This document shows positions 10,621 through 25,812 of a DNA stretch of 64,000 nucleotides, in pieces. This DNA comes from Curvibacter sp. CHRR-16. Lineage in GTDB: Bacteria > Pseudomonadota > Gammaproteobacteria > Burkholderiales > Burkholderiaceae_C. The notes under the pieces are model-generated. The model worked only from the letters and a program-made list of their open reading frames with translations. It was not told the origin of the DNA and ran no database searches. The stretch spans positions 372,001 to 436,000 of the forward strand of contig NZ_JAHCSH010000004.1 of NCBI RefSeq assembly GCF_018474005.1, given 5' to 3'. The translations under genes were made by a program, and so were the position numbers. Each line of letters begins with the position of its first letter. The first letter of the stretch is position 1.

Positions 10621-11784
10621 ATGCAAAACCAAAACTCACGACGTCGTTTGGTGTTGGGCATGCTGGGCGTACCTGCCTTGGCCTCCACCGGTTTGCTAGC
10701 AGCCTGTGATTCGGTGTCACCCAGTGTCAAGATTGGCGTAGCACAGCCCCTCTCCGGCCCCATTGGCTCATGGGGACAAGACATGCTCAACGGCGTGCAA
10801 ATGGCCGTGGCCGACATCAACAAGGAAGGCCTGCGCGTCAAAGGCAAAGCTGTCACCCTAGAGGTAGTCTCTGGTGACGACAAATCCAATCCCGAAGAGG
10901 GCCAAAAAGTGGCCCAAACCCTCATTGATGCCGGTGTGGTCGCCGTCATTGGCAACCTCAACTCCGGTGTGAGCATTCCTGCCGCCCCGCTGTATGCACA
11001 AGCCCATGTGGCGCAGTTGGCCATCTCCACCAATCCCAAGTTCACACAACTGGGCTTTGACACGACCTTTCGCATCGTCGCCAACGACAACCTGCAAGCC
11101 AAAGCGATCGCCAGCTTCGCGATTGACCAAATTAAGGGGCAAGTGTTCACGCTGCTTGACGACGGCACCCCCTACGGCAAGGACTTGGCATCCCTGCTAG
11201 CGGCCACACTGAAAAAAGCCAACAAAACCATTGGTGTCCAACTGAGCCTGAACGACAAAAAGACCGATTTCAGCGATGTAGTGCCCAAAATCAAGGAGGC
11301 CAAATCGGACTGCTTGATCACCATCCTCAACGACTTTCAAATTGCCCCTTTTGTAGAAGCCTTGGTGGCAATCGATTACACCAACGTCACCATTTTGGGT
11401 GCGGACGGACTCAAAACCCCGCAGACGCTCAAAAGCGTGGGCCGGGTTAAACGCATTTACGCCTCGTCCAGCATTTTGGAAGCACCAGAGTTCAGTGCGG
11501 GTCGCCCTTGGCTAGAACGCTACCGCGTGCTGTTCAAAAAAGACCCCGTCTATGGTGGTCACTATGCATATGACGCCGTATTTGTGCTGGCTGCAGCGAT
11601 GCGCCGTGCCGGCTCTACTGACCGCGAAAAAATTGTGGAGGCGCTGCACAAAATCGATGGGTTTGCCCCTATTACCGGTTCCATGAAATGGAACGATGAT
11701 GGCGAGCAACGCTTTGGCGTGGTAGGTGTGTATGCCGCCACATCGAGCGGCTGGGAAAGCCTAATGCGCTCAGACGCATGGTAA
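10621..11784 (+). CDS. branched-chain-amino-acid-type periplasmic binding lipoprotein (LivK family)
   Basis: ABC-importer binding protein of the periplasmic-binding-protein type 1 family, 387 residues. The N-terminus [13 protein letters not shown] has a twin-arginine-like start, and GLLAAC is a lipobox, so it is probably exported folded or as a lipoprotein. The mature part opens [20 protein letters not shown] and continues with [10 protein letters not shown] and [19 protein letters not shown], as in LivJ/LivK proteins. GGAG stands immediately before the ATG; a longer frame from 10534 is less likely. No permease or ATPase gene is adjacent, so it must use a transporter encoded elsewhere or act as a sensor. 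Downstream are the P-loop and glutaminase genes on the same strand. Confidence 0.85.
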
Positions 11785-11824
11785 ATAAAAAAAACAGATA
11801 ACACCTCACATGAGGAGACACAGC

Positions 11825-12415
11825 ATGGCATTGCGCTATACGTTGGTGCCCAATGTTTTGCCCGAAAACAAAATGCGGATCTACCCCACCAAGGTTATCA
11901 ATGTGATTGGTGGCCCGGGGTGTGACAAGTCACTGATTTCTTCGGCCATTATTTTGTTCTTGCATTTGCACCATAAAACGGTGGAAACCATCCCCGACTA
12001 CGCCAAGTCTTTGGTCTGGCAACGCAACTTTGAAGTGCTCAAAAACCAGTACTTCATCGCCCAGCGTCAGTTTGAAATGCTGAGCCTGCTCGATGGTCAG
12101 GTGCAGTTTCTCATCACCGAGTGCGCCTTACCCCAAGTGCTGTACTACAACGAGAACTACGCCGACAACATCTGTGACATACAAAAAACCAGAAACCAAA
12201 TTCTGGATTGGCATAAACAGTTCAATAACGTCAATGTCTTCGTGACGCGGGGCGACAAAAAATACGTTCACACGGGTCGTTTCCAAGACGAAGAGCAAGC
12301 GCGTGCCATTGACCGCGGCATACGCGGATTACTGGTCCGCGAACGCATTCCCTACACAGTATTGCCACCCGATCTGGAACAGATCAACGCCTTCGCCCAA
12401 AGCCTGATTGAATGA
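11825..12415 (+). CDS. AAA_28/NadR-like P-loop protein with altered Walker A
   Basis: A 196-residue cytoplasmic protein. It begins with a short lead and then KVINVIGGPGCDKSLISSA (23-41), which resembles the Walker A of AAA_28/NadR-like nucleotide kinases, but the Gly before Lys of GxxxxGKS is Asp34. Later blocks also fit that fold: TVETIPDYAKSLV, QRQFEMLSLLDGQVQFLITECALP (Walker B-like strand), NVFVTRGDKKYVHTGR, and EEQARAIDRGIRGLL. GGAG 8 bases before the ATG at 11825 favours it over the ATG at 11810. The stop overlaps the glsA start (ATGA), implying translational coupling with glutaminase. Function is unknown; it may have lost kinase activity and kept nucleotide or peptide binding. Confidence 0.6.
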   Translation: MALRYTLVPNVLPENKMRIYPTKVINVIGGPGCDKSLISSAIILFLHLHHKTVETIPDYAKSLVWQRNFEVLKNQYFIAQRQFEMLSLLDGQVQFLITECALPQVLYYNENYADNICDIQKTRNQILDWHKQFNNVNVFVTRGDKKYVHTGRFQDEEQARAIDRGIRGLLVRERIPYTVLPPDLEQINAFAQSLIE

Positions 12416-13347
12416 ATTCCCTGCCAGAGATTCTGGCCAGTATCCACGCCCGCATCCCCCGCTACTGGGGTCAGGGCGCGGTGGCCAACTACATCCCCGC
12501 ACTCGCTCAAGTCAACCCACGCCAATTTGGCATGGCTGTAGCCTTGCTTGATGGCAGTGTGCACACGGTGGGTGACGCGCATGTGCCGTTTTCACTGCAA
12601 AGCATCACCAAGCTATTTACCTTTGTGCTGGCGCTGCGCTCCGAGGGCGATGCCTTGTGGCAACGCGTGGGGCGCGAACCATCGGGCGCGGCGTTCAACT
12701 CCATCGTCCAGCTAGAAACCGAAAGCGGCATCCCCCGCAACCCGTTTATCAACGCTGGGGCCTTGGTCATTACCGATATCTTGACCACGCGCTACGCCCA
12801 CTTGGACTACGCATTGCTCGGCTTGCTACGCCGCCTGTCCGATGCGCCCGACCTGCACTGGAACCCGCAGGTTGCCAAGTCCGAGCGCGAAACAGCCCAC
12901 CGCAACATGGCCATGGCTTATTTCATGAAAAGCCATGGCAACTTCCACAACGAGCCCGAACTGGTGCTGGACAACTACTGCCGCCAGTGCGCCACCGAAA
13001 TGAGTTGCGCCCAACTGGCACGCGCCAGCATCTTTTTGGCCAATGGTGGCCAAGACTTGACGCACAGCGGCACCCCGGGCGAGCGCCTGCTGCAACCCGA
13101 AGCGGCACGCCGCGTCAACGCCCTCATGCTCACCTGCGGTGCTTACGACGCTGCGGGTGACTTTGCCTACCGCATTGGCTTGCCCATCAAAACCGGCGTG
13201 GGCGGTGGCATGGTGGCCACAGTGCCCGGAGTAGGCAGCATAGCCGTGTGGTCGCCCGAGCTAGACGCCAAGGGCAACTCAGTGGCTGCACGCGCCGCCC
13301 TGGAAATGCTGGTCGATGCCACAGGCTGGGGTACCAAAGGCTTGTAA
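12412..13347 (+). CDS. glsA: glutaminase A
   Basis: Hydrolyses L-glutamine to glutamate and ammonia. It is 311 residues, the family size, with the beta-lactamase-like catalytic motif SITK (Ser64-Lys67) and the conserved GREPSGAAFNSI, PRNPFINAGAL, AYFMKSHGN and KTGVGGGMVA blocks. It is coupled by a 4-base ATGA overlap to the P-loop gene and lies downstream of an amino-acid-type binding protein, so the three may form one nitrogen-acquisition operon (inference). The convergent gene to the right is separated by 22 bases. Confidence 0.94.
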   Translation: MNSLPEILASIHARIPRYWGQGAVANYIPALAQVNPRQFGMAVALLDGSVHTVGDAHVPFSLQSITKLFTFVLALRSEGDALWQRVGREPSGAAFNSIVQLETESGIPRNPFINAGALVITDILTTRYAHLDYALLGLLRRLSDAPDLHWNPQVAKSERETAHRNMAMAYFMKSHGNFHNEPELVLDNYCRQCATEMSCAQLARASIFLANGGQDLTHSGTPGERLLQPEAARRVNALMLTCGAYDAAGDFAYRIGLPIKTGVGGGMVATVPGVGSIAVWSPELDAKGNSVAARAALEMLVDATGWGTKGL

Positions 13348-15052: not shown

Positions 15053-15787
15053 TTAAAAACTCCCCGTGAACTGGTAGCGACTGGCTGGGTGCCACATGGC
15101 CGCCACCGTCGCCACCTGGCCTTGGCTCAGGGTTTGGCGGCGCAGCACCAAGCAGGGCTCTGCCTCGGCCATGCGCAGCATATCGCGCACGGTGCTGGTA
15201 GGTGCACAGGCTTCAATGGCAAAGCGCACCCCTTGCAGTGGCGCCACCCGCATCAGGTAGGCATTAGGGGTTTGGGTGGTGAAGTCCTGCTCCAAATAAT
15301 CGGGCGCCACTTTCGGATTCACGTACCGATCTTCCAACTGAATAGGCATGCCGTTTTCGCAGTGCACCACCAGCGAATGGAACAACGTTGCCTTGGGCCC
15401 CATGCCAAAGGCCTGCCCCAGCGCAACGCCCGCATTCACGCGTTCTAGCTTGTGCAACTCGCTGCGGTGGGTGTGGCCGCGTGCGGCAATTTCGTCGGCA
15501 ATGTTGCGTATTTCCACCAGTGTGGCTTGGTACTTTTGCTGCGCCACATAGCTGCCCGAGCCTTGGCGGCGTTCGATGATTTGCTCATCACTCAACTCGC
15601 GCAGCGCCCGGTTCACCGTCATACGCGAAACCGCAAAGCTGCGCGAGAGCGCCTCCTCGGTCGGAATGGCATCGCCCTCTTTCCACACCCCGCTTTGGAT
15701 TTGCTCCACCACGTGCTGCTTGATCTGCACATAGGCAGGCAAACGCACAGCGCTGCTGGGAGTGGCTACAGAAGGTTTGCTGACCAT
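15053..15787 (-). CDS. hutC: histidine utilisation repressor HutC
   Basis: GntR/HutC-family transcriptional repressor, 244 residues. The N-terminal winged helix (about 15-82) includes YVQIKQHVVEQI, PTEEALSRSFAVSRMTVNRALREL and GSGSYVA. The UTRA ligand domain follows, ending HPASRYQFTGSF as in HutC proteins. It represses the hut genes and is released by urocanate. It is divergent from hutU, and a palindromic operator lies in the 107-base gap, so autorepression is likely. Confidence 0.94.
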   Translation of the reverse strand: MVSKPSVATPSSAVRLPAYVQIKQHVVEQIQSGVWKEGDAIPTEEALSRSFAVSRMTVNRALRELSDEQIIERRQGSGSYVAQQKYQATLVEIRNIADEIAARGHTHRSELHKLERVNAGVALGQAFGMGPKATLFHSLVVHCENGMPIQLEDRYVNPKVAPDYLEQDFTTQTPNAYLMRVAPLQGVRFAIEACAPTSTVRDMLRMAEAEPCLVLRRQTLSQGQVATVAAMWHPASRYQFTGSF

Positions 15788-15832
15788 ATTGGGGTTTGCT
15801 TGGATGGATGAAATTCATTATGGCCGCATAAT

Positions 15833-15856
15833 TTGTATATACAACTTGGCTGTACA
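15833..15856. promoter_or_regulatory. HutC operator
   Basis: A perfect 12-base palindrome TTGTATATACAA at 15833-15844 sits midway between hutC and hutU, and a second partial site TGTACA follows at 15851-15856. The known HutC site is a TGTA-N-TACA-type palindrome, so both genes should be controlled here. The palindrome's TATATA may overlap the hutU -10 region. Confidence 0.75.
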
Positions 15857-15894
15857 CTCCAAACCAAGCCACTTCTCGACGAGGAACACCCACC

Positions 15895-17598
15895 ATGAGC
15901 AACACCGCTACCAATCCCCGCATCGACCCCACCCGCGTGGTGCGTGCCCCGCGCGGCACCACCCTGCATTGCAAAAACTGGCTCACCGAAGCGGCTTACC
16001 GCATGATCCAGAACAACCTCGACCCCGAAGTGGCCGAGAACCCGCAAGCCTTGGTGGTCTACGGCGGCATTGGCCGCGCAGCGCGCGACTGGGCCTGCTT
16101 TGACCAAATCCTGAGCAGCCTGAAAAACCTGAACGACGACGAATCCCTGCTCATCCAGTCCGGCAAGCCGGTAGGCGTGTTCAAAACCCACCCCAACGCT
16201 CCCCGCGTGCTGCTGGCCAACAGCAACCTGGTGCCCAAGTGGGCCCACTGGGAGCACTTCAACGAGCTGGACCGCAAAGGCCTGTTCATGTACGGCCAAA
16301 TGACCGCGGGCAGCTGGATTTACATCGGCAGCCAAGGCATCGTGCAAGGCACCTTCGAGACTTTTGTCGAAGCCGGTCGCCAGCACTACGGCAACGACCT
16401 GTCTGGCCGCTGGATACTGACCGCCGGCTTGGGTGGCATGGGTGGTGCACAGCCTTTGGCCGCCACGCTGGCAGGGGCATGCTCGCTCACCATCGAATGC
16501 CAGCAAAGCAGCATCGACTTTCGCCTGCGCACCCGCTATGTGGACAAACAAGCGCGCGACATTGACCACGCATTCGAACTGCTGAAAGAACACACCGCCA
16601 AGAAAGAAGCCGTCTCCATCGCCCTCTTGGGCAACGCTGCCGAGGTGCTGCCGGAGCTGGTACGCCGTGCCAAGGCCGGCGGCATGCGCCCTGACATCGT
16701 GACCGACCAAACCTCGGCACACGACCTCATCCACGGCTACCTGCCTCTGGGCTGGAGCGTGGCGCAGTGGAAAGCCGCGCAGCAAGACCCCAGCCAGCAC
16801 GCCGCCCTGAAAACCGCCGCCGCCAAGAGCTGCGCCGTGCACGTGCAGGCCATGCTGGACTTCCACGCCATGGGCGTGCCCACCGTGGACTACGGCAACA
16901 ACATCCGCCAAGTGGCGCTGGACGAAGGCGTGAAAGACGCTTTCGCCTTCCCCGGCTTTGTACCCGCCTACATCCGCCCTCTGTTCTGCGAAGGCAAAGG
17001 CCCCTTCCGTTGGGTGGCGCTCTCAGGCGACCCCGAGGACATTTACAAAACCGACGCCAAGATCAAAGAACTGTTCCCCAACAACCACCACACCCACCGC
17101 TGGCTGGACATGGCGCGCGAGCGCATCTCCTTCCAAGGCCTGCCCGCCCGCATCTGCTGGTTGGGCTTGGGCGAGCGCCACATTGCCGGTTTGGCCTTTA
17201 ACGAGATGGTGAAAAACGGCGAACTCAAAGCACCCATCGTCATTGGCCGTGACCACTTGGACACCGGCAGCGTGGCCAGCCCCAACCGCGAAACCGAAGG
17301 CATGCGCGACGGCACCGACGCCGTGAGCGACTGGCCGCTGCTCAACGCCCTGCTCAACACCGCAGGCGGCGCTACCTGGGTCAGCCTGCACCACGGCGGT
17401 GGCGTGGGCATGGGCTACAGCCAGCACTCGGGCATGGTCATCGTGGCCGACGGCACCGATGCCGCCGCCGAGCGCTTGGCCCGCGTGCTGGTGAATGACT
17501 GCGGCAGCGGCGTCATGCGCCATGCCGACGCTGGCTACGAGCTGGCCGTGGCCACCGCCAAAAAGTTTGGCCTCACACTTCCCATGATCAGCGCCTGA
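15895..17598 (+). CDS. hutU: urocanate hydratase
   Basis: Second step of histidine breakdown: converts urocanate to imidazolonepropionate using tightly bound NAD as electrophile. It is 567 residues, normal length. Recognisable are [21 protein letters not shown] at the N-terminus, [11 protein letters not shown], the NAD-binding [11 protein letters not shown] (about 179-189), and the C-terminal [26 protein letters not shown] precedes the ATG. It is the first gene of the hutUHDIG operon, downstream of the HutC operator, and hutH follows after 20 bases. Confidence 0.97.
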
Positions 17599-17618
17599 AC
17601 ATTCCAACGAGTTACACC

Positions 17619-19163
17619 ATGAGCAACACCACTTTCACCCTAGAACCCGGCAGCATGACACTGGCCGACCTGCGCCGCATTTGGCAGCAGCCCGTGCAGG
17701 TGAGCCTTGCTGGCAGCGCCCACGCCGCCATTGCGGCATCAGCCGCCACCATCCACAGCATCGTGGCCAAGGGCGATGCCGCCTACGGCATCAACACCGG
17801 CTTTGGCAAACTGGCCAAAACCCGCATCCCCGACGAGCAATTAGAACAACTGCAGCGCAACCTCATCCTGTCCCACTCGGTCGGCACGGGCGAACCCATG
17901 AGCGACGCCACCGTGCGCTTGGTCATGCTCATGAAGGCAGCCAGCTTGGCACGTGGCTACTCCGGCGTGCGCGCCGTGGTGGTGGACACGCTGCTGGCCT
18001 TGCTCAACGCGGGCATCATGCCCGTCATCCCAGTCAAAGGCTCGGTGGGTGCATCGGGCGACTTGGCCCCGCTGTCGCACATGACGCTGGCCCTCATGGG
18101 CGAAGGCCCGGTGCGCGTGAACGGCGCCACGCAAGACGCCAAAGCCGCCCTGCAAGCGGCAGGCATTGCCCCCATCAACCTGGCCGCCAAAGAAGGCTTA
18201 GCCCTCATCAACGGCACGCAGGTCTCCACCGCACTGGCGCTGCATGGTTTGTTCATGGCCGAGCGCTTGCTCGAAGCGGGCACCGTCATCGGCGCGCTGT
18301 GTGTGGACGCGGCCAAAGGCAGCGATGCCCCGTTTGACCCGCGCATCCACGCCGTGCGCGGCCAACCCGGTCAAATGGCCGTGGCAGCCGCCACCCGCAC
18401 CCTGCTGGCGGGCAGCGCCATCCGCCTGTCGCACATGGAAAACGACGAGCGCGTGCAAGATCCCTACAGCCTGCGCTGCCAGCCGCAAGTCATGGGTGCA
18501 TGCCGCGACATCATCGCCAACGCCGCCCGCACCCTGCTGCTTGAGGCCAATGCCGTCACCGACAACCCGCTGGTCTTCACCGACACGGGCGAAGTACTCT
18601 CGGGTGGCAACTTCCACGCCGAGCCAGTGGCCTTTGCTGCCGACACGCTGGCGCTGGCCATCAGCGAGATTGGCGCTATATCGGAGCGCCGCATCGCCCT
18701 GCTGATCGACAGCAGCATCTCCGGCCTGCCCGCTTTCTTGGTCAACAACCCTGGCCTGAACAGCGGCTTCATGATCGCGCACGTCACCGCAGCGGCCTTG
18801 GCGTCTGAGAACAAATCGCACGCCCACCCCGCCAGCGTGGACAGCCTACCCACCAGTGCCAACCAAGAAGACCACGTCAGCATGGCCACCTACGCAGGCC
18901 GCCGCTTGGCCGAGATGGCCGACAACACCGCCACCATCTTGGGTATTGAGTGGCTGGCTGCCGCCCAAGGCGTGGACTTCCATCGCCCCCTGCGCACCAG
19001 CGCCGCGCTGGAAACCACCCACGCCACGCTGCGCAGCCAAGTGCCGTTTTACGACCAAGACCGCCTGTTCGCCCCCGATATAGAAGCGGCGAAACAGCTG
19101 GTGCTACTGGGTGCAGCAAGCCACAGCCACGAGGCCACGCTGCAAGGCCTGTGGAGCGCGTAA
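17619..19163 (+). CDS. hutH: histidine ammonia-lyase
   Basis: First enzyme of histidine degradation: removes ammonia from L-histidine to give trans-urocanate. It is 514 residues. Ala145-Ser146-Gly147 in [14 protein letters not shown] form the MIO electrophile by self-cyclisation. The catalytic tyrosine lies in [11 protein letters not shown] (Tyr56), and [15 protein letters not shown] is conserved. Its last 13 bases overlap hutD. Confidence 0.97.
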
Positions 19164-19825
19164 CCGCCCTTGCATCCATTGCGCCCACCCCGTGGCGCAA
19201 TGGCGGCGGCACCACCCGCGAGCTGCTGGCATGGCCCAGCAGCGCCGACTGGCAACTGCGCCTGAGCGTGGCCGACATTGCCAGCGATGGCGATTTTTCG
19301 GCCTACCCCGGCGTGCAGCGCTGGTTTGCCGTGCTCAGCGGTGCGGGCGTGGTACTGCACTGGCCTGCACAGGCCAGCCAACCCGCCCACACCGAGACAG
19401 CTACCCCCACCAGCGGCGTACTGCAGTTTGACGGTGCCACCCCACCCTACGGCCAACTGGTAGATGGCCCGGTGCAAGACTTCAACCTCATGAGCCGCAG
19501 CGCCCACGCTGACTTGCTGCCTGTGCAGGCAGGCCAAGCGTGGCAAGCTCCTGCCAGTGCACCAAACACCATGCTGTGCGGCCTGTTCATCTGCCAAGAC
19601 GGCGTGCTGCAGACTGGCGATGCCCAGCACCCCTCGCACAAGCTGCCCGCCATGAGCCTGTACCACCGCATCGTTCATACGCCCAGCCACGGCACTGCCG
19701 CGCAGGCGCTTGCACCTTGGGTGTTTGAACCCACCCCCATGCCGCAGCAGCATGGCTCCACCGGACACAGCAGTCCCCTGCTGGGCTGGTGGTTCTACTT
19801 TCAGCCCGCAACACAGCCCCTATGA
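19151..19825 (+). CDS. hutD: HutD family protein
   Basis: Cupin-like protein found in hut loci of many proteobacteria. In Pseudomonas it is thought to limit hut expression by binding formylglutamate or urocanate, but its biochemistry is not settled. It is 224 residues from a GTG at 19151, overlapping hutH by 13 bases. The N-terminal [38 protein letters not shown] and the middle [11 protein letters not shown] are HutD hallmarks. No ATG is available nearer. The stop overlaps the hutI ATG. Confidence 0.88.
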
Positions 19826-21102
19826 CCGCGCTCCACCTCTGGCACAACGCCACCGTTTGCACCCTGACGCCCGCCCCCGGCAACACCGTGCCCGATAGCC
19901 CCGCGCCAGATTGGGGCCTCATCCCCTACGGCGCGGTGGTGACCGAAGGCGACACCATCCGCTGGGTGGGGGCCTACAGCGACCTGCCCGCCCAGTACAC
20001 CCCCAGCGCGGGCCAGACCGCCCAGCCCATCACCGCGCACGACTTGGGCGGCGCGCTGCTCACCCCCGGCTTGGTGGACTGCCACACCCACTTGGTGTAC
20101 GGCGGCCACCGCGCCAACGAGGCCGAGATGCGCCTGCAAGGTGCCAGCTACGAGCAAATAGCCCGAGCAGGCGGCGGCATCCGCTCCACCGTGCAGGCCA
20201 CGCGCAGCGCCAGCGAAACCGCGCTGCTGGAAAGCGCTCGCAAGCGGCTGCTGCAACTGGCCGCCCAAGGCGTGACAACGGTGGAGATCAAATCCGGCTA
20301 CGGCCTGAGCTTGGAGAGCGAAGCGCGCAGCCTGCGCGTGGCCCGCGCTGTGGGCAGCGAAACAGGCCTGACCGTGCGCACCACCTACCTAGGTGCCCAC
20401 GCCCTGCCGCCCGAATACGCAGGCACCCCGCACGAGGCCGATGCCTACATCGACGCCGTGTGCACCTGGCTGCACGAGCTGCACGCCCAAGGCTTGGTGG
20501 ACGCAGTGGACGCGTTTTGCGAAACCATAGGCTTTAGCCCTGCGCAGACCGAGCGCGTGTTTGCCACCGCCCGCGCCTTGGGCTTGCCCGTCAAACTGCA
20601 TGCCGAGCAACTGAGCAACCAAGAGGGGGCCGCGCTGGCCGCCCGCTACCAAGCCCTGTCGTGCGACCACCTGGAGTACCTGAGCGATAGCGGCATCGCC
20701 GCCATGCGCGCCGCTGGCACCGTGGCCGTGCTGCTGCCCGGCGCGTTTTACGCCCTGCGCGAAAAACAGCTACCCCCCATAGACGCGCTGCGCCGCGCTG
20801 GCGTGCCCATGGCCGTGGCCACCGACCACAACCCCGGCACATCGCCCACGCTGTCGCTGCCGCTCATGCTGCACATGGCGTGCACGCTGTTTCGCCTCAC
20901 GCCGCTGGAAGCCGTGCTGGGTGCCACCGTGCACGCCGCCCGCGCTCTGGGCCTGCACGACAGAGGCCAACTGGCCGCTGGCCAGCGCGCCGACATGGCC
21001 GTGTGGCAACTGCAACACCCCAACGAGCTGGCCTACTGGTTTGGCAATTTGCCTTGCCAGCACACCATCGTGGGCGGACAAGTCTTTCACCCTGCGCTGT
21101 AA
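19822..21102 (+). CDS. hutI: imidazolonepropionase
   Basis: Third step of the pathway: a metal-dependent amidohydrolase that opens imidazolonepropionate to N-formimino-L-glutamate. It is 426 residues. The metal-binding histidines lie in [17 protein letters not shown]. Other landmarks are [39 protein letters not shown], and [19 protein letters not shown] near the C-terminus. The ATG at 19822 overlaps the hutD stop (ATGA), so translation is coupled. hutG follows after 6 bases. Confidence 0.96.
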
Positions 21103-21108
21103 ACCACC

Positions 21109-22131
21109 ATGAGCCATTCCACGCCCCTGACCAACACCCCCGCTCCCTTCCACTGGCAAGGCCGTGTGGACTCGGAAGAAGTTGGCCCCTCTGCCCGCTG
21201 GCATCAGCGGGTGCAAGCGTTTGACGCTGCAAGCAGCCATGGCGGCAGCGCTGGTGGTGTGGCACATGGTGTGGCCCTCATAGGTTTTGCCAGCGACGAA
21301 GGCGTACGCCGCAACCAAGGCCGCCCCGGTGCCGCTGATGGGCCGCGTGCCCTGCGCCAAGCGCTGGCGGGCCTGCCCGTGCTGGGCGAGCCTGCGCTGT
21401 GGGATGCAGGCGACGTGGCCTGCACCGACGGTGCGCTAGAAAGCGCCCAAACCGCACTGGCCCAGCGCATAGCGCAGGTCAGCCAAGCGGGCTGCTTTCC
21501 GCTGGTGCTGGGCGGCGGACACGAGGTGGCGTGGGGCAGTTTTCAGGGGCTGATGCAGGCACACCCGCAACTCAAGCGCGTGCTCATCCTCAATCTGGAC
21601 GCGCACTTTGACCTGCGCACCGCAGCGCAAGGCAACTCGGGCACGCCGTTTCGCCAGATACACGACTGGTGCCAAGCGCACAGCCTGCCCTTTGTGTACC
21701 GCGTGCTGGGCATCAGCCGCTTTGCCAACACAGAGGCGCTGTTTGACCGCGCCGACCAAATGGGCGTGCGCTACTGGCTGGACGAAGCCCTGCAAAGCAC
21801 CGACCAACTACAAACCGCGCTGGACGCGCTGCAGGCCGACGTGCTGGCCGCCGACGCCGTGTACCTGACCATTTGCCTGGACGTGCTGCCCGGCGGCCAA
21901 GCGCCCGGTGTGTCCGCCCCCGCACCGCTGGGCGTGCCCCTGCACTTGCTAGAAATGGTGGTGGACTGGGTGTTTGCCCAGCGCAAAGTGCTGCTGGCCG
22001 ACGTGGCCGAACTCAACCCCAACCACGACCGCGACAACCTGACCGCCAAAATTGCCGCCCGCTTGGTTGCACGCATGGCGCGGGTGGTAGCGCCCACAGG
22101 GAAATTCACGCGCAGTGCTTCAATCTTGTAA
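21109..22131 (+). CDS. hutG: formimidoylglutamase (arginase family)
   Basis: Fourth and last step: hydrolyses N-formimino-L-glutamate to glutamate and formamide. It is 340 residues of the arginase/agmatinase fold. Manganese ligands are visible in GGGHEVAWG, NLDAHFDLR and ICLDVLPG. No formiminoglutamate deiminase (hutF) is present, so the cluster encodes the four-step route to formamide. It is the last gene of the hut operon. No terminator hairpin was seen in the 148 bases before the chemoreceptor gene. Confidence 0.92.
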   Translation: MSHSTPLTNTPAPFHWQGRVDSEEVGPSARWHQRVQAFDAASSHGGSAGGVAHGVALIGFASDEGVRRNQGRPGAADGPRALRQALAGLPVLGEPALWDAGDVACTDGALESAQTALAQRIAQVSQAGCFPLVLGGGHEVAWGSFQGLMQAHPQLKRVLILNLDAHFDLRTAAQGNSGTPFRQIHDWCQAHSLPFVYRVLGISRFANTEALFDRADQMGVRYWLDEALQSTDQLQTALDALQADVLAADAVYLTICLDVLPGGQAPGVSAPAPLGVPLHLLEMVVDWVFAQRKVLLADVAELNPNHDRDNLTAKIAARLVARMARVVAPTGKFTRSASIL

Positions 22132-22279: not shown

Positions 22280-23932
22280 ATGGGTCGGTTATCGAATTTG
22301 TCGGTTTCGAAAAAGTTAGCGTTGGGTTTTGCAGCACTGCTGCTACTTTCTCTGGGGGTTATTGGACTGAGTATTTCGCGCCTGAATGCCGTGGCTGATG
22401 CCACGCAGCAAATGCTGAAAAGCCCCATCAAAACGGAGCGACTCATCAGCGACTGGGCCCGCAATGTGCGTGCTAGCCTGACCCGCGCCACCGCCATTGC
22501 ACGCAGTGCAGACAATTCCTTGGTGGACTTCTTCAAAGACGAGCAAACCCAGTCCAGCAAAGAGTCCGCTGAATACATGAAGGCTGTGCAAGCAGAAATG
22601 GACAGACCCGATGAACAAGCCCTCATGGCTGACATCGAAGTTCTTCGCAAAAATTATTTGCAAACGCGTGATGAGATATTTGCACTCAAAAAAGAGGGCA
22701 AAAACGACGAGGCCATTAAGCTACTAGAAGAGAAGTACACCCCACAAACCGGGCAATACCTGAGCAAGGTGCAAGCCCTGCTCATGGAGCAGCGCAAGCA
22801 AGTGGATCAATTTGCAGCCGACATCGATGCCAATCGCCAAGCCAGCAATCTGCTGCTCATGGCCTTAGGCGTAGTGGGTTTGCTTATGGGGGGACTATTC
22901 ACTTGGCTGCTGGCGGGCACCATTACCAAACCACTGATCCAGGCCACCGATACGGCTGAGCGCGTGGCCTCGGGCGATTTGAGCACAGCCATCCACATCA
23001 CCAGCAACGACGAAGTCGGCCGCTTACTGGCATCGCTGCAAAAAATGCAAACCAGCCTGATCACCGTGGTGGGCAATGTGCGCCGTGGATCGGATGCGCT
23101 AGCGCTGGCCAGCAACGAAATCGCACAGGGCAACCAAGACCTCTCTAGCCGCACCGAAAGCCAAGCCAGCGCGCTGCAACAAACCGCCGCCAGCATGACC
23201 CAACTGGGCAGCACCGTACGCCAAAACGCCGACAACGCCATGCAGGCCAACCAACTGGCGCAAAGCGCCAGCACCATTGCAGTGCAAGGCGGCGACATGG
23301 TCAGCGATGTGGTGGGCACCATGCGCGGCATCCACGAAGCTAGCAAAAAGATTGGCGACATCATCGGCGTGATCGACAGCATTGCCTTCCAAACCAACAT
23401 ACTGGCCCTGAACGCCGCTGTAGAAGCTGCCCGCGCTGGCGAGCAAGGGCGTGGCTTTGCCGTGGTCGCCAGCGAAGTGCGCGCCCTAGCAGGCCGCAGC
23501 GCCGAGGCAGCCAAGGAGATCAAATCACTCATTGGCAACAGCGTGGAATGGGTGGAAAAAGGCACCAACCAAGCCGATCAAGCAGGCCAGATCATGCAAG
23601 ACGTGGTCAGCAGCATCAAACGCGTAACCGACATCGTGGCCGAAATCAGCGCCGCCAGCACCGAGCAAAGCGCTGGCGTGGAGCAAGTAGGCTCGGCTGT
23701 AGCCTCTATCGACCAAACCACCCAACAAAACGCAGCCTTGGTAGAAGAAATGGCCGCCGCTGCAGCCAGCCTACGCAGCCAAGCGGGTGAACTAGTGCAG
23801 GCGGTGGGCGTGTTCAAACTCAGCGCATCGGACAAAGTACACAGCGCCATAACCGCCGTTATCCCAGCGCCCAAACGGTTGCTGGCAGTAGCCAAGCCCG
23901 CTGGCGGTGGTGATGCGTGGGAAACCTTTTAA
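22280..23932 (+). CDS. methyl-accepting chemotaxis protein with C-terminal WETF tail
   Basis: Transmembrane chemoreceptor, 550 residues: membrane segment about 12-31, a four-helix-bundle type periplasmic sensor about 35-188, a second segment about 190-212, HAMP about 213-265, and a long methyl-accepting coiled-coil. The signalling tip includes [20 protein letters not shown] and [15 protein letters not shown]. The protein ends DAWETF, which resembles the NWETF pentapeptide that tethers CheR/CheB in enteric receptors, so it may serve as a high-abundance receptor. The ligand is unknown; it follows the hut operon on the same strand, but a link to histidine sensing is only a guess. Confidence 0.92.
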
Positions 23933-23976
23933 GCGCTGGCATTTATCGGGGGTCTGCACCGCATAAAATCGTTCAA

Positions 23977-25812
23977 ATGAGCGCATCTACCCCCGACAAC
24001 ACCAACACCCCCACCACCCACGTCAGCAACTTCCTGCGCCAGATCATCGAGAGCGATCTGGCCAAAGGCACCTACGCCAGCCGCCGCTGGGCTGGGGAGC
24101 CCGGCGACGCTGCCCACCATGCCAAGGGCGAGCCCGACCCAGCCAAGATTCGCACCCGCTTTCCGCCCGAGCCCAACGGCTACCTGCATCTGGGCCATGC
24201 CAAGAGCATCTGCATCAACTTCGGCCTGGCGCGTGACTACGGCGGCGTGTGCCACCTGCGCTTTGACGACACCAACCCCGAAAAAGAAGACCAAGAGTAC
24301 GTCGACAGCATCATCGACGCCGTGCGCTGGCTCGGCTTTGACTGGGTGCAAAAAGGCCAAGCCCCCGGCACGGCCAAGCCCTACCAAGCCAGTGACTACT
24401 TTGGCTTTATGTACCGCGCAGCGGTGTACCTTATTGAGTCTGGCAACGCCTACGTGGACGAGCAAACGCCCGAAGAAATGCGCGTGAACCGTGGCGACTT
24501 TGGCAAGCCCGGCGTGGACAGCCCCTACCGCAACCGCACCCCGGCGGAAAACCTGGCACGTTTTGAAGAAATGAAAAACGGCCAGCACGCTGACGGTGCC
24601 ATGGTGCTGCGCGCCAAGATCGACATGGCCAGCCCCAACATCAACATGCGTGACCCGGCCATCTACCGTATCAAGCATGCAGAGCACCACAACACGGGCA
24701 ACACCTGGTGCATCTACCCCATGTACACCTTTGCGCACCCCATAGAGGACGCGCTGGAGCAGATCACCCACAGCATCTGCACGCTGGAGTTTGAAGACCA
24801 ACGCCCGTTTTACGACTGGCTGCTGGACAAACTGGTGCAAGGCGGCCTGCTGGCAGCCCCATCGCCCCGCCAGTATGAGTTTTCGCGCCTGAACCTGACC
24901 TATGTGATCACCAGCAAGCGCAAGCTAGCCCAACTGGTGAACGAGGGCAAGGTACACGGCTGGGACGACCCCCGCATGCCCACCATCGTGGGCCTGCGCC
25001 GCCGTGGCTACACGCCCGAAAGCCTGCAACTGTTTGCCGAGCGCATAGGCGTGACCAAGAGCGACAGCTGGATCGACTACAGCACGCTGGAAGGCTGCCT
25101 GCGCGAAGACCTGGAAAACAAAGCCCACCGCGGCATGGCCGTGCTGGACCCCGTGAAGCTGGTGCTGACCAACTGGGACGACGTATTTGCCGACAAAGGG
25201 GGAGCAGCCTACCTGGAGCCCTGCACCCTGCCCGCCCTGCCCCACCCGCCAGAAGGAACCGAGTCCCCCGTGCGCCACTTCACCATAGGCAAAGAAGTGT
25301 GGATAGAGCGCGAAGACTTCGCCGAAGTACCGCCCAAGGGCTACAAGCGCCTCTTCCCCGGCAACAAAGTGCGCCTGAAGGGCGGCTACGTGATCGAGTG
25401 CACCGGCTGCAACAAGGACGCCAACGGCACCATAACCGAAGTGCTGGCCACCGTGGTGCCTGACACCAAGAGCGGCACCCCCGGCGCCGACAGCGTGAAA
25501 GTGAAAGCCGCCATCACCTGGGTGGGCGTGGCCGACGGTAGACCAGCCGAAGTGCGCATGTACGACCGCCTGTTTAGCGACGCACACCCCGACGCAGGCG
25601 GCAAGAACTTCTTGGAAGCGCTCAACCCGAACAGTCTGAAGGTGGTAACAGCCATAGTGGAACCGACCCTAGCCAACGCGCAGCCCGACCAGAAGTTCCA
25701 GTTTGAACGGCACGGCTACTTTGTGGCCGACCGCAAAGACCACCAAGCGAACAAGCCGGTGTTTAACTTGGCGGTGGGGTTGAAGGATTCTTGGCAGGCT
25801 CCACAGAAATGA
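23977..25812 (+). CDS. glnS: glutaminyl-tRNA synthetase
   Basis: Class I aminoacyl-tRNA synthetase that charges tRNA-Gln. It is 611 residues from the ATG at 23977; an open extension to 23917 is not needed. The HIGH-type motif is in PPEPNGYLHLGHAKSICINF, the KMSKS-type loop is VITSKRKLAQL, and RFDDTNPEKE is conserved. The C-terminal anticodon-binding barrels are complete, ending VGLKDSWQAPQK. The stop codon overlaps the start of a foreign-looking kinase gene (ATGA), so an accessory cassette abuts the exact 3' end of this essential gene. Confidence 0.96.
   Translation: MSASTPDNTNTPTTHVSNFLRQIIESDLAKGTYASRRWAGEPGDAAHHAKGEPDPAKIRTRFPPEPNGYLHLGHAKSICINFGLARDYGGVCHLRFDDTNPEKEDQEYVDSIIDAVRWLGFDWVQKGQAPGTAKPYQASDYFGFMYRAAVYLIESGNAYVDEQTPEEMRVNRGDFGKPGVDSPYRNRTPAENLARFEEMKNGQHADGAMVLRAKIDMASPNINMRDPAIYRIKHAEHHNTGNTWCIYPMYTFAHPIEDALEQITHSICTLEFEDQRPFYDWLLDKLVQGGLLAAPSPRQYEFSRLNLTYVITSKRKLAQLVNEGKVHGWDDPRMPTIVGLRRRGYTPESLQLFAERIGVTKSDSWIDYSTLEGCLREDLENKAHRGMAVLDPVKLVLTNWDDVFADKGGAAYLEPCTLPALPHPPEGTESPVRHFTIGKEVWIEREDFAEVPPKGYKRLFPGNKVRLKGGYVIECTGCNKDANGTITEVLATVVPDTKSGTPGADSVKVKAAITWVGVADGRPAEVRMYDRLFSDAHPDAGGKNFLEALNPNSLKVVTAIVEPTLANAQPDQKFQFERHGYFVADRKDHQANKPVFNLAVGLKDSWQAPQK

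Follow-up and report, generated by a model that had tools for sequence, protein, structure and literature searches.

We describe P0001, a protein encoded in a 64,000-nucleotide stretch of Curvibacter sp. CHRR-16 (hereafter the window), as a member of a lineage-restricted protein family in which the last glycine of the Walker A motif has given way to an acidic residue. Judged from the aligned sequences, Asp34 is a family trait, i.e. a real, conserved and unusual variant of the P-loop. The family itself is a variant within the known small P-loop kinase fold, and is ordinary as to its neighbour glsA. Our preferred reading, to which we give a probability of about 0.5, is that P0001 stands for a stand-alone, chromosomally encoded branch of the small P-loop kinases whose donor site has been re-set to an acidic form; such a protein would probably still bind a phosphorylated ligand, with altered phosphotransfer. 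The last P-loop glycine is regarded as near-obligatory, and its replacement by Asp counts as a loss-of-function mutation. The occurrence of Asp or Glu at position 34 in dozens of species, with the Lys and the arginines intact and several apparent returns to Gly, constitutes a natural variant set that can serve two questions: the role of the last P-loop glycine and the re-purposing of a kinase fold.

The start at 11825 is backed by the GAGGAG stretch upstream of it (Table 1), and NVIGGPGCDKSLISS is read near the N terminus of the translated open reading frame. An earlier note on this DNA had reported a GGPGCDKS motif with Asp for the last Walker A glycine, a remaining Walker B-like region and a 4-base overlap with glsA, and the translation and the DNA bear out all three. 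GGPGCDKS departs from the P-loop NTPase pattern GxxxxGK[ST] in that its last Gly is Asp; the first Gly, the Lys and the Ser are kept. The Walker B-like strand FLITECALPQ is present, and QFLITE has the form expected of a P-loop NTPase Walker B, namely a hydrophobic strand (residues 95-98 in the model) followed by the acidic Glu99, although this Glu stands where the phage relatives carry Asp. At the other end of the gene, the stop codon TGA (12413-12415) overlaps the glsA start codon ATG (12412-12414) in the sequence ATGA (12412-12415). The binding-protein neighbour on the upstream side is found in part of the P0001 relatives, where it is 54-58% identical.

Table 1. Positions of the P-loop gene, its motifs and its immediate neighbours in the window
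Feature	Position	Strand	Basis or remark
P-loop kinase-fold protein P0001, 196 aa	11825..12415	+	ORF translation; PHROG 2107, Pfam AAA_28, AlphaFold2 model
GAGGAG, ribosome-binding-site-like	11812..11817	+	Seven bases 5' of the ATG at 11825; sequence reading
Walker A GGPGCDKS, residues 29-36	11909..11932	+	Asp34 codon GAC at 11924-11926
Asp58, just past strand β2	11996..11998	+	Glu in phage relatives
Glu99, Walker B-type position, end of strand β3	12119..12121	+	Asp in phage relatives
NICD segment, residues 115-118	12167..12178	+	Inside a stretch gapped in at least 42 of 46 phage rows
Arg142 and GRFQ (151-154), presumed lid region, conserved residues	12248..12286	+	Family and phage alignments
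glsA, glutaminase	12412..13347	+	Pfam Glutaminase E 1.6e-107; NCBIfam PRK00971.1-2, 436 bits vs cut-off 368
ABC-type periplasmic binding protein (Peripla_BP_6), upstream	10624..11784	+	Pfam 9.9e-49; 40 bases before the P-loop gene

The conservation of Asp34 was judged from 98 distinct full-length family proteins, drawn from 79 genome_contigs loci, the window and the same-family or same-order loci L117-L147. Fragments (L104, L106, L107 and L109), identical proteins and L148, a distant relative with the normal loop GAPCSGKS, were dropped before counting. With the window's protein included, position 34 is Asp in 86, Glu in 7, Gly in 4 (L076, L088, L095 and L144) and Asn in 1; it is acidic in 93 of the 98 and Ala or Ser in none. 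The conservation of the Asp in homologues, which the earlier note had proposed as a check, is therefore found in the large majority of the family. Among the fragments outside the counts, L107 reads Asp and L109 reads Glu. The 29 same-genus loci L002-L030 come for the most part from the same genomes as the genome_contigs loci and are left out of the 98; they carry Asp in 23, Glu in 4 and Gly in 2, the latter being L029, a further Gly protein, and L030.

The P-loop Lys35, the Walker B-type Glu99 and the residues Arg142, Arg152 and Gln154 are each present in all 98 proteins; position 36 is Ser in 96 and Thr in 2, and position 58 is Asp in 92 and Glu in 6. Cys117 and Asp118 of the NICD segment (12167-12178) are likewise invariant (98/98). 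They lie in the stretch where nearly all phage rows show a gap, and are possibly part of the acceptor site. In the N-terminal tail, Lys16 and Arg18 occur in 73 of 73 proteins. Most members have TE[CSAG][SA]LPQ after strand β3, which is TECALPQ in P0001. The columns that appear to covary with Gly34 are H59, H130, A150 and E155; each of these residues also occurs in 1-5 of the other 94 rows, of which some are closely related.

Outside the family, the closest sequence relatives are the 'thymidylate kinase' or AAA-domain proteins of large phages that make up PHROG 2107 ('thymidylate kinase'), a group in which P0001 is placed by a profile match over residues 23-175 (E 6.8e-14). In all, 68 phage-collection records match P0001; the 40 listed are 27-34% identical to it and, if annotated at all, bear the names thymidylate kinase, AAA-domain, NadR-like or hypothetical protein. 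We used 46 of the 54 de-duplicated phage rows, chosen for GGP in the first 60 residues and blind to position 34, and combined them with 28 family members in the 74-member alignment A3. The family and the phage rows have N26, GGPG, K35, S36, E54, K61, R142 and GRxQ in common, with Arg142 in 45, Arg152 in 46 and Gln154 in 37 of the 46 phage rows. In contrast to the family, the phage rows carry Gly at position 34 (45/46, with Ser in the remaining one), Asp at position 99 and Glu at position 58 (46/46 each), and are mostly devoid of the N-terminal tail and the NICD stretch. From the comparison of the family with the 46 phage rows at these three positions, two changes, G34 to an acidic residue and D99 to Glu, thus mark the family branch, while a third, E58 to Asp, marks most of it.

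The acidic form was sought in viral DNA as well. Among 80 viral loci, 72 were parsed at position 34 with a motif expression, giving Gly in 65, Asn in 1 and Ser in 1, and five 'Met' readings that are false matches of the expression. Among the 8 loci that were not parsed, a normal GKST loop escaped the expression in seven, and no loop can be read in one. A DNA pattern for the Asp form, covering only Asp in one sequence context, matched once in the viral contigs, in an unrelated protein, and the Gly-form version of the pattern matched at least 120 times. Within the reach of these searches, the Asp form belongs to bacterial chromosomes. Among the viral contigs scanned, the Gly-form relative nearest to P0001 lies at a contig end (L149:1-546); it is 41% identical to P0001 and has the loop GGPGTGKSC. 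In Myxococcus phage Mx1 (L112:1-3064), a relative annotated as nicotinamide-nucleotide adenylyltransferase is located near an annotated nicotinamide phosphoribosyltransferase gene, a neighbourhood that would be consistent with the phage proteins having an NAD-related role.

Structure prediction and profile comparison point to the same kind of fold. The AlphaFold2 model, built with 74 homologues, has a mean pLDDT of 90.2 and a pTM of 0.84, and its weak part is the N-terminal tail of residues 1-20, whose two blocks have pLDDT values of 52 and 63. Thymidylate kinases head the Foldseek list (E 3.2e-5, TMq 0.61), and NadR heads that of VIA (8x7f; Z 16.2, rmsd 2.6 over 166 residues, 10% identity, for residues 18-196 of P0001), with thymidylate and deoxycytidine kinases at Z 13.6-14.8 among the best 50 rows. 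A BFVD viral protein matches the model with a TMq of 0.88 and an rmsd of 1.2. By profile alignment with hhalign (probability 82%, E 1.1e-5), GGESSGKST, WEYGRD and IDTD of E. coli NadR align over residues 29-37, 57-62 and 96-99 of P0001, i.e. over the three changed spots. On the strength of the model, the structural matches and the NadR profile alignment, P0001 has, by prediction, the NadR kinase/thymidylate kinase fold, which is a small-molecule kinase fold. The sequence search for solved relatives gave weak matches only, the best of which (E 0.0024) covers an adenylate kinase in its P-loop region.

Within this fold, P0001 is set apart from both named groups. The predicted model has the fold of the NadR ribosylnicotinamide kinase domain (AAA_28, PF13521; PDB 8x7f, 6gye and 1lw7), a likeness that says nothing on function, and in E. 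coli NadR the Walker A motif, the β2 acid and the Walker B-type position line up with those of P0001. However, P0001 consists of the kinase fold only, without the fused NMN adenylyltransferase (NMNAT) domain that defines NadR or an HTH domain, and it has the P-loop Asp and the Walker B-type Glu. Its match to Pfam AAA_28 over residues 25-185 reaches 25.4 bits (E 1.9e-5), just below the gathering cut-off of 27, as against 106.7 bits for E. coli NadR; 65 of the 74 members of alignment A3 match AAA_28 at E 0.01 or better. The thymidylate kinases (PDB 4unr, 4s35 and 1e2d) give the best Foldseek E-value and VIA Z values of up to 14.8, but are only about 8-15% identical. A DR(Y/H) motif follows β3 in thymidylate kinases, whereas P0001 has TECALPQ at this place. 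The automatic names thymidylate kinase and NadR may be wrong for the P0001 branch. The genome of the window also holds one further AAA_28 protein above the cut-off (L247, G000:C1:106606-107079 on contig C1; 214 aa, 70.9 bits), which has the normal loop GAECTGKT.

The gene is under constraint. The dN/dS ratios of the window's gene against seven relatives are 0.06-0.12, which are rough values since dS exceeds 1 in all seven, and the median over the 260 usable of 300 sampled pairs is 0.15. Both Asp codons and both Glu codons are used at position 34 among 73 genes. The low dN/dS, the acidic residue in nearly all members and this use of all four codons together argue that Asp34 is more than chance.

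The history of position 34 was followed on two trees, a quick one of 106 rows with phage outgroups and with column 34 kept, and a more careful one of 64 rows with column 34 removed. On both, the four Gly members fall at three places within the Asp family, requiring three changes, and Glu likewise requires three. When well-supported branches alone are considered, two changes to Gly are forced on the 64-row tree and one on the 106-row tree. For the 64-row tree, none of 200 bootstrap trees groups the Gly members together, and forcing the four of them with four phage rows costs 36.5 log-likelihood units (p-AU 0.021, in a test made after the first tree had been seen). Since the Gly members nest inside the Asp family on both trees, Asp is best taken for the ancestral state, from which Gly was regained. 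The branch that separates the family from the phage rows is very long, however, and the two trees disagree on the deepest splits within the family, so that this is the most economical reading and not proof.

The family is narrowly distributed. Among sampled whole genomes of the same genus, 32 of 61 are positive, and two of these genomes (G009 and G029) show pieces only; in the same family, 32 of 299 sampled genomes and 15 of 141 genera are positive, with weaker matches in G084 and G211 that yielded no locus and whose position 34 is outside the counts. At the level of the order, the 5 positives in 300 genomes comprise the window's own genome, three from a single genus that belongs to another family, and one with a distant relative whose loop is normal; across the phylum (398 genomes) only the window's own genome and the same distant relative were found. 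Asp34 was read in each of the 15 positive genera and in the second family of the order. The 79 loci come mainly from Rhodoferax, Curvibacter and other Burkholderiales/beta proteobacteria. A search of plasmids gave no near DNA match to the locus and only distant protein relatives in 9 records, and a PADLOC search of the locus for defence systems gave no match. A Variovorax (Comamonadaceae) plasmid carries a phage-type relative with the normal loop GAPGVGKS beside a RecD-like helicase (L111:2474-3073). Searches of open-licence papers for the altered motif or the family gave none that deals with the P0001 family.

In the reading that we prefer, the gene would be a chromosomal member of the small-molecule kinase fold (NadR/thymidylate kinase type, in the neighbourhood of AAA_28), akin to the phage kinase-like proteins, whose donor site may have been re-set in this lineage. 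The last P-loop Gly would have become Asp (sometimes Glu or Asn), the Walker B-type Asp would have become Glu and, in most members, the β2 Glu would have become Asp, with the P-loop Lys and the lid arginines fixed throughout and the Ser almost always. Since Lys35 and the lid arginines never vary and Ser36 hardly does, with the glycine and the two acids shifted, a phosphorylated small molecule is most likely still bound through Lys35 and the arginines, in an altered geometry. The carboxylate at position 34 would alter how the β/γ phosphates or the metal are held; it may occupy the place of the phosphate, or share the metal with Glu99. The outcome would be a slow, donor-shifted or sensing protein, presumably with altered phosphotransfer, rather than a standard ATP-dependent kinase.

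We also consider, tentatively, that the carboxylate was built into the P-loop under selection, and that Asp/Glu34 and Glu99 together form a new metal or phosphate-mimic site, whereby the protein would use another donor or another metal, or act as a self-occluded switch that only its true ligand can open. If this is true, the family would be an exception to the rule against an acidic residue for the last P-loop Gly in a working site, and one kept in at least 15 genera.

Several points weigh against a re-set donor site. The Asp is not strictly required, as Gly is found in 4 of the 98 proteins and in L029 and L030, and E58D is found in 92 of the 98 but not in all. It is just as conceivable that an Asp next to the P-loop Lys prevents phosphate from binding at all. 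In PMC9599734, the Walker B Asp is described as strictly conserved and its replacement as causing loss of activity, with a few Glu-bearing members noted, a statement that speaks for a disabled site.

The main rival is a pure scaffold, which we regard as somewhat unlikely. P0001 would be a true pseudokinase, in which Asp34 pairs with Lys35, fills the phosphate site and binds nothing there, and which acts as a scaffold or regulator of a protein partner. A change from Gly to Asp at the last P-loop glycine is expected to hinder phosphate binding, and the conserved but flexible N-terminal tail, with its invariant Lys16 and Arg18, could be a docking peptide. There is also a precedent in EcpK of Myxococcus, a bacterial P-loop pseudokinase that is proposed as a scaffold in PMC12004946, and that resembles P0001 in that a bacterial P-loop fold has persisted despite altered motifs. 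According to the same source, however, EcpK falls within the tyrosine-kinase branch and has residues that depart from the Walker motifs, whereas the Lys of the P0001 family is invariant and the Ser nearly so. More generally, Lys35, Ser36, Glu99, Arg142 and Arg152 are without sign of decay, Gly has been regained three times on the best trees, and the loci read show no fixed neighbour that could serve as the partner.

An unlikely alternative is that P0001 is an ordinary active small-molecule kinase in which a non-glycine residue at position 34 is simply tolerated. MCM helicases tolerate Ala at the position of the last P-loop glycine, and in the P0001 family Asp, Glu, Asn and Gly interchange within one scaffold whose Lys35 and both arginines are invariant. 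Mere tolerance does not agree well with the composition of the position, which is overwhelmingly acidic and never Ala or Ser, nor with the replacement of the Walker B-type Asp by Glu, which accompanies it in every member and is seen in none of the 46 phage rows.

We consider it very improbable that P0001 is a translationally coupled regulatory partner of the glutaminase GlsA, as the earlier note had proposed from the ATGA overlap in the window. The linkage to glsA, which that note had proposed to check in homologues, does not recur: glsA is next to the P-loop gene in none of the 77 judgeable genome_contigs loci, i.e. those with at least 600 bases past the match (the other 2 of the 79 reach less than 600). 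No adjacent glsA was seen in the 29 same-genus and 31 same-family or same-order loci, with flanks of up to 1.5 kb, or in the 10 wider loci, these locus sets being overlapping. The conserved linkage that would characterize a glutaminase operon partner is hence lacking in the loci compared. In 14 of the 79 other loci glsA is within the fetched flank, never closer than about 1.4 kb, and in all 14 one or two called genes stand between it and the P-loop gene. Ten of the 14 have both a second binding protein and an opposite-strand membrane-type protein there, three have only the binding protein and one has only the membrane-type protein. The orthologue of the second binding protein (79% identity) is located on contig C6 of the window's genome. 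Because these genes intervene in the relatives and one of them is found elsewhere in the genome, the ATGA overlap appears to be secondary, arising from a local loss or move of the genes between. Thus, from gene order, glsA is best explained as a neighbour by rearrangement, and the overlap as no evidence of shared function.

A local mutation or sequencing error in one genome has a negligible chance of being the explanation, with Asp in 86 of the 98 distinct proteins, in 15 genera and in a second family of the order; of the counter-case raised in the earlier note, homologues with normal GK(S/T) and no link to glsA, the first half is excluded for the Asp by this count and the second half is what the 77 judgeable loci show.

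Other neighbours were surveyed in 80 loci (the 79 and the window's slice), in which genes were called and then named by sequence reading, not by profile search. The glutaminyl-tRNA synthetase gene glnS is found in 45 of the 80, a LytTR-type regulator in 26 and a queG-like gene in 9, a LON-domain-like protein is present in 15 loci, and trp or htpG genes occur in some of the wider loci. We considered glnS as a linked partner on the basis of its 45 loci and rejected it, since other loci carry other neighbours; contig ends truncate many of the loci surveyed. What looked like tandem paralogues in 15 loci was a clustering artefact; the upstream protein is the unrelated LON-domain-like protein, which probably joined the cluster through a fused ORF. 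No fixed neighbour gene was seen among the loci read, and the flanking genes are read, from their order and names, as the probable local synteny of housekeeping genes, with no partner among them. In the window, glnS is at 23917-25812, 11.5 kb downstream of the P-loop gene. Between glsA and glnS, at 15053-22131, lie histidine-utilisation genes named by reading as hutC-like, hutU, hutH, hutD-like, hutI and hutG-like, and in some relatives, e.g. L052 and L088, glsA and glnS are adjacent.
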